From Gluconobacter sp. Dm-62 (GTDB lineage Bacteria; Pseudomonadota; Alphaproteobacteria; Acetobacterales; Acetobacteraceae), in assembly GCF_018256155.1 (NCBI RefSeq), contig NZ_JAERLY010000002.1:496001-560000 (forward strand): DNA of 64,000 nucleotides. Reading direction: 5' to 3'. The notes beneath the pieces are model-generated. The model was not told where the DNA came from, ran no database searches, and worked only from the letters and a program-made list of their open reading frames with translations. Position numbers and translations under genes: made by a program. Within the stretch, counting starts at the first letter, position 1; every line of letters starts with the position of its first letter. Below are positions 28,771 to 61,101 of the stretch, one piece after another.

Positions 28771-28805
28771 GCCCGATTCCGGAATCTTTCCGTGCAGAAT
28801 CGGGC
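28771..28805 (+). terminator. Second hairpin after rpoC
   Basis: GCCCGATTC (28771-28779) and GAATCGGGC (28797-28805) form a 9-bp stem, followed by CATTTT. It stands immediately after the first terminator and may back it up. Confidence 0.5.
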
Positions 28806-57923: not shown

Positions 57924-58559
57924 ATGGAATGGTTTTACGAGAATAACGGGCAGCAGGCCGGTCCCGTTTCCCGTGAAGAAATCCTGCGTCTGATCATGCA
58001 ACAGCGCATCAAACCCGAAACCCTTGTCTGGACGTCGGAGTTTGGAGAGACGTGGCGGCCAGCCAGCGCTGCCGGGCTTGTGTCGCCGCTGACAGGCCTG
58101 CTGCGGATGTCGTCAGGCATTTCAGAACACTGGGCCTGGGTTTTGCTGGTGGGGCCCTGGCTCATCCAGCGTCTGGCGCTTCTGGTTCTGGATTGGCGCC
58201 AGATCCCGGATAGTGAACGGATGGGAACATTTTCCATCATTGGAATGATGTCACTGGCCCTGTTTTTCACGGCTTTTGTGCTTGATCGCAATTCGATCCG
58301 CGAGAGTGGTCAAACGCCGCCCGGCTTCTGGTGGTGGCTTTTCCTGCCGGGTTATTTCTGGAGGCGGCGGCAGATTGTCGGCCGCGGGCTCTCGCTTCTG
58401 ATCGTCAGCCTCGTGTTGCTGGCGGCGAATGTGACAGAAAAGATCTATCAGCTTCCCCAGATCGAAACCGAGCTTCAGACGCGGCAAGGGCAATCGAGTC
58501 AGCCTGCTCCTACGACGCCTCCGGGTGCTGGCCAGGACAACGAACAGGAAGAACTCTGA
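57924..58559 (+). CDS. GYF_2 (DUF4339) domain membrane protein
   Basis: A 211-residue protein. The N-terminal domain MEWFYENNGQQAGPVSREEI continues LVWTSEFGETWRPASAAG and is the GYF_2/DUF4339 fold, which is thought to bind peptides. It is followed by about four membrane helices (WAWVLLVGPWLIQRLALLVL, TFSIIGMMSLALFFTAFVL, FWWWLFLPGYFW, LSLLIVSLVLLAANV) and a Gln/Pro-rich cytoplasmic tail. The function is unknown. Its start is only 8 bp after the terminator stem of the CsbD-like gene. Confidence 0.85.
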   Translation: MEWFYENNGQQAGPVSREEILRLIMQQRIKPETLVWTSEFGETWRPASAAGLVSPLTGLLRMSSGISEHWAWVLLVGPWLIQRLALLVLDWRQIPDSERMGTFSIIGMMSLALFFTAFVLDRNSIRESGQTPPGFWWWLFLPGYFWRRRQIVGRGLSLLIVSLVLLAANVTEKIYQLPQIETELQTRQGQSSQPAPTTPPGAGQDNEQEEL

Positions 58560-58573
58560 AGTCCGCAGGGAAA

Positions 58574-58663
58574 GAGTCTTTCACACCACACTTGACAGAC
58601 TAAACTCAGAGAAAATGCATTTTTAGGCTTCCCTTTCGAGTCGCCATGATTCAAAACCGATTC
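58574..58663 (+). promoter_or_regulatory. rnhB-ccrM promoter region with four GANTC sites
   Basis: A perfect TTGACA (58592-58597) is followed 18 bp later by a weak TGCATT. GANTC, the target of CcrM, occurs at 58574, 58638, 58648 and 58659. The last three are spaced 10 and 11 bp, so they lie on one face of the helix. About 0.6 sites would be expected by chance in this 147-bp gap. Methylation-dependent autoregulation is inferred. Confidence 0.6.
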
Positions 58664-58706
58664 GGTCACCTGATTTTGGGGTGTCTGTCGGGGAGAACGC
58701 TCAAAA

Positions 58707-59330
58707 ATGCCGGATTACGCCCTGGAAGCTGCCCATGGGGGGCTGGTCGTCGGGATCGACGAAGTCGGGCGTGGTCCTCTGGCAGGGCCGGTGGTGGCTT
58801 CTGCCGTTGCATTCACGACGCCTCCGTCTGAAACCCTGTCTTCCCTCCTTGATGATTCCAAGAAACTGACAGCCCGGCGCCGGATGCTTGCCTATGAGGC
58901 CCTGATGGCTGACGAGCAGGTTCTGATCGGCATCGGTGCCGCGTCTGTTCTGGAAATTGAGCAGATCAATATTGCCCAGGCCTGCTATCTGGCCATGCGC
59001 CGCGCGCTGTCCCGGTTGGGGCGCATGCCGGATCTGGCCCTTGTGGATGGCAAACATGCCCCAAAGCTGCCGTGTCCCATCAAAATGGTGATCGGCGGGG
59101 ACGGGATCAGCCTGTCCATTGCCGCAGCCTCTATCATCGCAAAAGTGACGCGGGATCGCCTGATGGCGCGTCTGGCGGTGCGACATGACGCCTATGGTTG
59201 GGAGCGCAATGCCGGTTATGGCACGGCCGCGCATATGCAGGGCCTGAAGCTCCGGGGGGTGACACCCCATCACAGGCGTAGTTTTGCGCCGATACGAAAC
59301 ATGATTGAAGCAGAGGCACACGCAGCATGA
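58707..59330 (+). CDS. rnhB: Ribonuclease HII
   Basis: A 207-residue RNase HII that removes RNA from RNA-DNA hybrids and single ribonucleotides. The catalytic motif [15 protein letters not shown] has Asp18 and Glu19. [10 protein letters not shown] holds the next acidic residue, and [12 protein letters not shown] and [11 protein letters not shown] follow. It ends in an ATGA overlap with ccrM, an adjacency common in alphaproteobacteria. Confidence 0.97.
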
Positions 59331-60412
59331 GCGGTGAATTTCCCGTCGACCAGATCCTGCGTGGAGAATGCATCGAAACGATGAAGACGCTGCCCGATGG
59401 GAGCGTGGACTGCATTTTCGCCGATCCGCCGTACAACCTTCAGCTACGCGGCGAGCTGCGTCGTCCGGACGAGACCGTCGTGGACGGGGTGGATGATGAT
59501 TGGGACAAGTTCGCGGATTACGCGACCTACGACAATTTTACGCGCGAATGGCTCAGCGAAGCACGCCGTATCCTGCACAAGGACGGTACGATCTGGGTTA
59601 TCGGATCGTATCACAATGTCTTCCGGCTGGGCGCGATCATGCAGGATCTGGGCTTCTGGATCCTGAACGACATCGTCTGGCGCAAGTCCAACCCGATGCC
59701 GAATTTCCGGGGGCGGCGTTTTACGAACGCACATGAGACACTGATCTGGGCGGCTCGTGGTCCGCAGAGCAAGTACCGCTTCAACTATCAGGCCATGAAG
59801 GCGCTGAACGACGATCTTCAGATGCGCTCGGACTGGTATCTGCCGCTATGCACCGGCAATGAGCGCCTGAAGAACGAGCATGGCCTGAAACTGCATCCGA
59901 CGCAGAAGCCGGAAAGTCTGCTCCATCGTGTTCTGGTGGCCTCGACCAATGCCAACGACGTGGTCCTCGATCCGTTCTGCGGCAGTGGCACGACGCCCGC
60001 CATGGCCAAGCGCCTGGGTCGCCATTACATCGCCATCGAACGCCATCCGGATTACGTTAAGGCCGCCCGGGAGCGTGTGGCGCGTGAAGAACGCCTGACA
60101 TCCGAGCAACTCGCGACGACGCCTGCCAAGCGTGAGATGCCCCGTATTCCGTTCGGCAGCTTTGTAGAGACAGGCGTCCTTCCTGCCGGAACGGTGTTGT
60201 ACGACCGGCAGAAACGGCTGAAAGCAACCGTTACGCCTGATGGTACGCTGGTTTCAGGTAATCAGCGTGGCTCGATTCACAAACTGGGCGCGACATTGAC
60301 AGGCGCACCGTCCTGCAATGGTTGGACGTTCTGGTATTTCGAGCGGGACGGACAGTTTGTCCAGATTGACGTGCTGCGCCAGGAAAGTCAGGCGCTTCGC
60401 AACGTCGGCTGA
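59327..60412 (+). CDS. ccrM: CcrM-type adenine DNA methyltransferase (GANTC)
   Basis: A 361-residue solitary beta-class N6-adenine methyltransferase, which in alphaproteobacteria methylates GANTC late in replication and times cell-cycle gene expression. The catalytic DPPY is at residues 33-36 ([10 protein letters not shown]) and the SAM-binding DPFCGSGTT near residue 214; this order defines the beta class. The C-terminal 85 residues ([20 protein letters not shown] onward) are the RAMA domain found in CcrM. No restriction enzyme is adjacent. It is translationally coupled to rnhB. Confidence 0.96.
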
Positions 60413-60431
60413 TACCGCGTAATGTACGCAT

Positions 60432-60464
60432 AAAAAAAGCCGGAGACTGATCTCCGGCTTTTTT
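60432..60464. terminator. Bidirectional terminator after ccrM
   Basis: AAAAAAGCCGGAGA and TCTCCGGCTTTTTT form a 14-bp stem with a CTGA loop. It serves both ccrM and the convergent ankyrin-repeat gene. Confidence 0.93.
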
Positions 60465-60483
60465 CGTATCAGGTTCAGAAATA

Positions 60484-61101
60484 TTAGTGGCCTGCAAAAC
60501 CCAGAAAGCCGACTGATGGGTCGGCTTTCCCACCGCTTGTGTCGAAATGCGGAGACGCTGCGACGAGAGAGCGTTTCGGTGTGACGGATTTTCCGCCAAT
60601 GGTGAGATGGCCGCTGCCATTCTTCATTTCGACGCCCTGATCAGAGACGCTGTTCTCGATTTTGCCGTCCGGATTATAGGTGCGCATCGACAGGAGCAGG
60701 AACATGATGTCCTTGCGGTTCAGGTCGATGGCCATGTCCAGCGGTGTCTGGTCCAGAACGTTGTGGCCACCCATGTCGGCGCCGCGGTTAAGTGCTTCTT
60801 TTGCCGCGTTGAGAGAGCCACGGTTGATGGCGTCGAACAGGGCCGTGGTCGGGTTCACGTCGGCGCGGGCATGCCCGGCATCGTCGTCGGACCCTTCTGC
60901 TCCAGGCAGGGCCGAAGGCGGCGCGGCGCGCTGGGCGGCCTTGCGGGCTTCGGCCTTCTTCTGGTTGGCTTCGGCTTCCTGTTCAGCCTCGGCGTCGTCG
61001 GCATCCTGAGCCTGGGCGTGATGCCAGGGTACGAGAATCGTCGGCGTCATTGCCAGAGCGGCAACGAGCAGCAGGCGGGGCAGGGTGGGGAGCAGTCGCA
61101 T
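60484..61101 (-). CDS. Secreted ankyrin-repeat protein
   Basis: A 205-residue exported protein. The signal peptide LLPTLPRLLLVAALAMTPTI ends at about AQA-Q (residue 31). A highly charged Glu/Lys/Ala-rich segment (about 32-75) follows. Then come about two ankyrin repeats with TALFDAINRGSLNAAKEALN, RGADMGGHNVLDQTPLDMAI and LNRKDIMFLLLSM. The C-terminal part is Gly/Lys-rich and unassigned. ATG 61101 gives the signal peptide; the upstream 92-residue extension is Arg-rich and not protein-like. Confidence 0.85.
   Translation of the reverse strand: MRLLPTLPRLLLVAALAMTPTILVPWHHAQAQDADDAEAEQEAEANQKKAEARKAAQRAAPPSALPGAEGSDDDAGHARADVNPTTALFDAINRGSLNAAKEALNRGADMGGHNVLDQTPLDMAIDLNRKDIMFLLLSMRTYNPDGKIENSVSDQGVEMKNGSGHLTIGGKSVTPKRSLVAASPHFDTSGGKADPSVGFLGFAGH

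Follow-up and report, generated by a model that had tools for sequence, protein, structure and literature searches.

The leader of the rnhB-ccrM operon in Gluconobacter sp. Dm-62 is crowded with GANTC pentamers, and the question is what they are for: control of the operon through DNA methylation, structure of the leader RNA, binding of some other regulator, or nothing at all. In Caulobacter, the ccrM leader has GANTC in a two-site arrangement. To our knowledge, most work on control by CcrM methylation concerns Caulobacter, its relatives and the rhizobia. Our literature search found no paper joining ccrM with rnhB, or joining CcrM, Acetobacteraceae and GANTC, and none of the titles listed dealt with this leader.

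All features given below are on the forward strand of the window, that is, of the whole analysed stretch of 64,000 nucleotides. The first gene of the operon, rnhB (58707-59330), was identified from the list of open reading frames and a profile match as encoding ribonuclease HII; ccrM (59327-60412) overlaps its end by 4 nt. The product of ccrM had been taken in an earlier note on this DNA for CcrM, and its domains are those of a CcrM-type adenine methyltransferase (N6_N4_Mtase, PF01555, 218 bits; RAMA, PF18755, 54.6 bits); several named Gluconobacter loci encode a CcrM 98-99% identical to that of the window. The operon leader, from the stop codon of a 211-aa reading frame to the ATG of rnhB, occupies 58560-58706 and is 147 bp long, as had been claimed. 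The four GANTC pentamers reported in it (GAGTC, GAGTC, GATTC and GATTC) are all at the expected positions: an upstream one (AGAGTCT, 58574-58578), followed by site A (CGAGTCG, 58638-58642), site B (TGATTCA, 58648-58652) and site C (CGATTCG, 58659-58663), the last three being indeed 10 and 11 bp apart.

By count alone, such a cluster is less striking than it looks. GANTC is depleted in the window (98 sites vs 345 expected from dinucleotide shuffles), and 400 kb of the same contig contain 641 sites. At the observed density, the Poisson expectation for triples within at most 30 bp is about 0.9 per 464 kb, and two were found, the one in the rnhB leader and another at 28775 in the rpoC-rpsL gap. 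Clustering per se was therefore dropped as evidence: as about one triple is expected per 464 kb, a lone cluster is weak evidence and conservation becomes decisive. Scaled to one 147-bp gap, the same rate corresponds to a probability near 3 in 10,000. The second triple (28775-28801) has spacings of 7 and 15 and sits inside an inverted repeat, GCCCGATTC...GAATCGGGC.

To assess conservation we gathered 148 rnhB leaders from genome contigs, 26 genomes of the genus and 60 of the 280 matching family genomes (mostly high-scoring ones), 119 of the leaders being distinct over the last 110 nt. These were sorted into seven acetous groups (n = 84), "other" (n = 11) and "distant" (n = 23) Acetobacteraceae, with one leader without sites (L079) excluded. 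At least two GANTC were found in the last 110 nt in 83 of the 84 acetous leaders, a figure that is partly so by construction, as the groups were set with the leaders in view, by their appearance and by the titles of the records of related loci; the same holds for 5 of the 11 "other" and 2 of the 23 "distant" ones. Three or more sites were observed in 69 acetous leaders, and in none of the "other" or "distant" ones. The distance between the starts of rnhB and ccrM is 620-671 nt in 84 acetous loci.

A count free of any grouping, in which identity may be inflated at 14 loci with only a partial ccrM, gives the following picture. At CcrM identity of at least 86%, two or more sites are present in 33 of 33 leaders and three or more in 31; at 74-86%, in 53 and 38 of 65, respectively; below 74%, in 4 and 0 of 21. 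These counts are not independent, since the leaders share descent. The comparison with other Acetobacteraceae proposed in the earlier note finds the array kept in most close and middling relatives. Within the Gluconacetobacter/Komagataeibacter group, 13 of 17 leaders have fewer than three GANTC, and L138 has a single site. Of 12 additional rnhB leaders, only that of L199 contains a triple; the other 11, counted outside the 119, have 0-3 scattered sites. In the 200 bp upstream of ccrM itself, no triple within 30 bp was found at any of 25 directly examined loci (12 of them with rnhB), and two to three scattered GANTC precede ccrM in four of them (L196, L200, L069, L077).

Could the array be due to chance or shared ancestry, with no function? 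In favour of this, a triple within 30 bp is expected about once in 464 kb. Against this, the array persists across genera whose leaders have otherwise largely diverged, and at loci L001-L049 the density of GANTC is 30.8 per kb in the leaders vs 1.26 per kb in the coding DNA of rnhB and ccrM, a 24-fold enrichment, with none of 735 coding windows of 110 bp from these loci containing three sites. We regard this explanation as hardly credible.

Several other loci differ in organization. No rnhB is present at the locus in the distant Acetobacteraceae L050, L051, L059, L065, L068, L069, L072 and L078; these eight loci have no GANTC array upstream of ccrM and share a TTGACGCGG- or TTGACGCGA-like word about 100 bp or less before this gene, which looks like a different ccrM promoter. 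At L150-L152, L154-L155 and L190-L194 there are one or two GANTC near rnhB (14 bp apart in L154-L155), and the leaders of L190-L194 have a GCGACTCGTTGAG block in common; these leaders possibly represent a transition between array and no array.

The arrangement of the sites is conserved less strictly than their presence. The earlier note proposed that a protein or RNA polymerase reads methylation on one helix face. In Gluconobacter, the 10/11 triple is present in 20 of 20 distinct leaders and in the divergent L199 (21 of 21 in total), and all the aligned leaders but L011 (19 of 20) have the upstream GANTC at -133/-134. The 10/11 spacing occurs in 4 of 16 leaders of the Bombella group, where the distance from site A to site B is 10 throughout (16 of 16), and in 2 of 5 Kozakia/Brytella-like leaders. 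Asaia and Swaminathania have 9/11 (7 of 7), and Neokomagataea-like leaders (n = 4) have 10/10/7 in three cases and 10/17 in one. In Gluconacetobacter/Komagataeibacter (n = 17) the spacing is 12 in six leaders, 11 in four, 20 in five and 30 in one, the remaining leader having a single GANTC and hence no spacing. In Acetobacter (n = 15), 10/11 was never observed; the core sites are spaced 16/18 in 11 leaders, 7/9 in three and 16/8/10 in one, and three of the 15 have additional sites nearby, at distances of 8, 10 or 12 bp. Spacing by one helical turn is thus frequent without being a requirement: with 10/11 in 21 of 21 Gluconobacter leaders vs 0 of 15 in Acetobacter, helical phasing is no general rule, and the reading of one helix face is not supported as a rule, since spacings of 9-12 bp in several genera stand beside 16/18 or 7/9 in most Acetobacter.

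The divergent leader L199 (G015:C1:388128-390600, from a 2.2-Mb genome of the same genus) bears on which gene the array serves. Here the reading frame of rnhB is broken, be it truly or through an error in sequencing. The ccrM gene (90% identity) is whole, and the triple is retained at -60, -50 and -39, with flanks unlike those of other Gluconobacter on both sides. If the break is not a sequencing error, the array would thus be linked to ccrM. In the same leader, UUAGGGCU is pairable with AGCCCUAA, and CCAGC with GCUGG.

What is conserved within the sites themselves bears on selection at the DNA level. At the first site, G-A-T-C is constant, and all four bases (G, T, C, A) occur at N, depending on the lineage. 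Flanking letters carry a further signal. YGAKTCG is the motif reported for GcrA-activated methylated promoters in the relevant passages of PMC7987155, according to which Brevundimonas did not show this extended motif. In the seven groups and L199, 162 of 287 sites fit this motif; in the 400-kb background from the own genome 89 of 641 do, which makes for an approximately four-fold enrichment, and at least one fitting site is present in 84 of 85 leaders. In the window, sites A and C (58638 and 58659) match, and the upstream site (58574) and site B (58648) do not. A GcrA homologue (PF07750) is encoded in the own genome (G000:C11:153498-154190, E = 9.3e-30) and in 55 of 60 sampled genomes of the family; among 14 control genomes, the PF07750 search gave matches in two, Caulobacter vibrioides and Sulfolobus acidocaldarius. 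CtrA control was set aside, as an exact-pattern, one-strand search of the last 200 nt for CtrA-type TTAA-N6/7-TTAA was nearly empty, with a match in 1 of 21 leaders from Gluconobacter and in none of 64 from the other six acetous groups.

These data also bear on the possibility that the leader binds another regulator, e.g. a dimeric repressor, with the GANTC incidental and methylation irrelevant. About 40 bp are almost invariant in the 20 Gluconobacter leaders, which is beyond the needs of the pentamers, and the flanks of the sites are palindromic (CGAGTCG, TGATTCA, CCGATTCGG), as such a regulator would lead one to expect. Across genera, however, it is the flanks that change and the pentamers, with a free N, that persist, and GANTC is the expected recognition site of the very enzyme encoded downstream. 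We consider such a regulator improbable.

Where the sites are situated relative to the promoter can be stated only conditionally. A sigma-70 consensus scan of 58300-60700 yielded no promoter. TTGACA at 58592-58597 is a candidate -35 element, present in 20 of 20 aligned Gluconobacter leaders and not seen in L199, which keeps the array; no good -10 was found downstream of it. The -10 published for G. oxydans is itself weak, nAtnnn, in the portion of PMC5756330 dealing with it, so that a poor -10 is no objection. Of the 85 acetous leaders, 79 have a word resembling TTGAC, TTGCG, TTGCAC or TTTACA at 97-117 nt upstream of rnhB; these words differ from each other and may not be one element. In the RNA-seq paper on G. 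oxydans, the main text does not mention rnhB. The start of TTGACA precedes that of site A by 46 bp. If TTGACA is the -35 element, transcription would start near 58626, and the phased sites would be at about +11 to +32, in the leader and outside the promoter core.

Taken together, the CcrM-type gene, the kept array, the encoded GcrA and the two YGAKTCG sites make methylation-dependent feedback the likeliest use of the sites: the gap is probably a cis-regulatory element through which the DNA methylation state, and with it replication and the activity of CcrM, controls the rnhB-ccrM operon. Of the feedback switch proposed in the earlier note, the conserved array, GcrA and the fit of two phased sites to YGAKTCG speak for the methylation part, and the helix-face part does not hold generally. 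The mechanism could be as follows. The array, ranging from two to several sites, would be retained because CcrM would methylate it; after passage of the replication fork it would be hemimethylated until CcrM restores full methylation, and the state of the sites, full or hemimethylated, would be read most probably by GcrA with sigma-70 RNA polymerase. The output of ccrM would then follow replication and be limited by its own product, and, with several sites needing remethylation, the array could sharpen the switch. Methylation, its reader, the promoter and the direction of regulation are all inferred here.

Known systems offer partial parallels to such feedback. The Caulobacter ccrM gene is described, in the part of PMC2217572 concerned, as transcribed only from the hemimethylated chromosome. 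The leader studied here resembles the ccrM promoter of Caulobacter crescentus in having GANTC in the ccrM promoter/leader region; it differs in usually having at least three sites, in the rnhB-ccrM operon structure, in the near absence of a CtrA-type site and in a predicted fold over the SD in four groups. For GcrA promoters of Caulobacter and Brevundimonas, GANTC both up- and downstream of the promoter is said to activate in the corresponding passages of PMC7987155. Our case is similar to these activated methylated promoters in the encoded GcrA and the YGAKTCG sites, its putative targets, and dissimilar in that the sites are clustered in an array, probably downstream of the start. This position speaks against the main reading, as the sites would be downstream of the candidate -35; in Caulobacter promoters of the class activated at 40-60 min, GANTC is located between -35 and -10, according to the section of PMC4287350 on this class.

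The same letters may act in the RNA. Since GANTC is self-complementary, RNA stems can preserve it as well, and the earlier note had missed that the leader RNA is predicted to pair with the rnhB ribosome-binding site in four groups. In RNAfold predictions for many leaders of a chosen set, an upstream arm pairs with the rnhB SD, and often with the start codon, in the Gluconobacter, Bombella, Acetobacter and Komagataeibacter groups, the pairing letters differing among the four. In the window, the predicted 5' arm of this helix (P1) is GCAUUUUUAGGCUUCCC (58617-58633), whose partner is the rnhB SD and start codon; the predicted 3' arm (58690-58710) runs from the SD-like GGGGAG (58690-58695) through the rnhB AUG. 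Between the arms, site B is predicted to pair with site A at the RNA level.

Expected long-range pairs exceed shuffles by a median z of 1.7 in Gluconobacter, 1.6 in Bombella, 2.35 in Acetobacter and 1.4 in Komagataeibacter. SD pairing above shuffles is absent from Asaia (median z -0.23), Neokomagataea-like (-1.2) and Kozakia-like (-0.71) leaders; long-range pairs above shuffles were found in neither the "other" nor the "distant" group, and the single members L003, L005, L011, L087, L120, L047, L033, L036 and L039 give no pairing signal. P1 as a universal helix is thus ruled out by three groups and single members without signal, and, as these three groups have the array but no P1, the DNA and RNA layers are separable. 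Fold z medians against dinucleotide shuffles are -4.7 in Acetobacter (n = 15), -5.8 in Gluconacetobacter/Komagataeibacter (n = 17), -2.7 in the Bombella group (n = 16) and -1.9 in Gluconobacter with L199 (n = 21), vs -0.1 for a control of 80 gene starts from the own genome, seven of which fall below -2. Elsewhere the medians are -0.06 in Asaia, +1.2 in Neokomagataea-like and -1.8 in Kozakia-like leaders; as the last value arises from an inner hairpin, fold z does not single out P1.

Comparison of sequences gives moderate covariation. In MAFFT alignments analysed with RNAalifold, which contain many broken cells (36 to 45), two-sided changes were observed at 4 of 27 pairs in the Bombella group (13 of 16 leaders), 8 of 23 in Acetobacter, 4 of 33 in Komagataeibacter and 2 of 35 in Gluconobacter; the Acetobacter consensus includes the inner hairpin and lacks P1. 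When arms were swapped among 44 representatives, own arms paired at -18.2 vs -14.6 kcal/mol for swapped ones, a difference matched in 0 of 5000 permutations, and in 1.0% with one representative per lineage group (n = 18). The arms were set automatically and all 44 rows were kept; those of L017 and L022 missed the pyrimidine tract, and those of L044, L136, L138 and L146 include part of the inner hairpin, so that these last four rows are strengthened.

These observations lend weight to an explanation by RNA only, in which a structured 5' UTR hides the rnhB ribosome-binding site and the GANTC are by-products of stem pairing, as a stem with GANTC on one side must have a GANTC-like pentamer on the other. 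The negative fold z in four groups vs the control and the better pairing of arms from the same genome fit it, as do the Bombella leaders, where a varying hairpin is retained without GANTC. Facing pentamers have complementary N.N in Acetobacter and in most leaders of Komagataeibacter, and form a G.U wobble at N.N in Gluconobacter; the complementary ones fit RNA pairing too, which makes the methylation reading slightly less certain. Yet N.N is mismatched with GA and TC kept in L016 (A.C), L120 (C.C) and the Asaia consensus (U.U); Asaia, Neokomagataea-like and Kozakia/Brytella-like leaders keep the array without SD pairing above shuffles; individual leaders are weak, only 9 of 68 in the four groups with signal lying above all 60 shuffles; and the YGAKTCG enrichment is left unexplained. 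We therefore think an RNA-only origin of the array unlikely. A bolder and rather doubtful reading is a dual use, with the DNA array sensing methylation and replication and tuning transcription of rnhB-ccrM, and with an RNA fold whose hairpins are made of the same GANTC letters and whose flanks mask the ribosome-binding site; CcrM might even bind the leader RNA, since the stems contain its recognition letters, and so repress its own translation.

Methylation-dependent control thus remains the preferred reading, and the predicted RNA fold is possibly a second, translational layer in four lineages, where the helix would hold translation of rnhB, and via coupling that of ccrM, low or conditional. 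In a group of industrially used bacteria, CcrM sites are thus densely packed in the leader of CcrM's own operon, where no CtrA site is obvious, which makes a compact test bed for methylation feedback on a methyltransferase and for joint DNA and RNA selection on one sequence.

In the four groups that have it, the predicted helix over the SD, which often extends to the start codon, is reminiscent of RNA thermometers and translational riboswitches; in contrast to known SD-sequestering leaders, it has no Rfam match and is absent from three groups. The Rfam search gave no family for the window leader (E up to 1) or for seven relatives (gathering thresholds). A terminator-like hairpin 3' of ccrM (60430-60466), unlisted by the consensus scan, has A- and T-runs on its flanks and is overlapped by weak sub-threshold Rfam matches.
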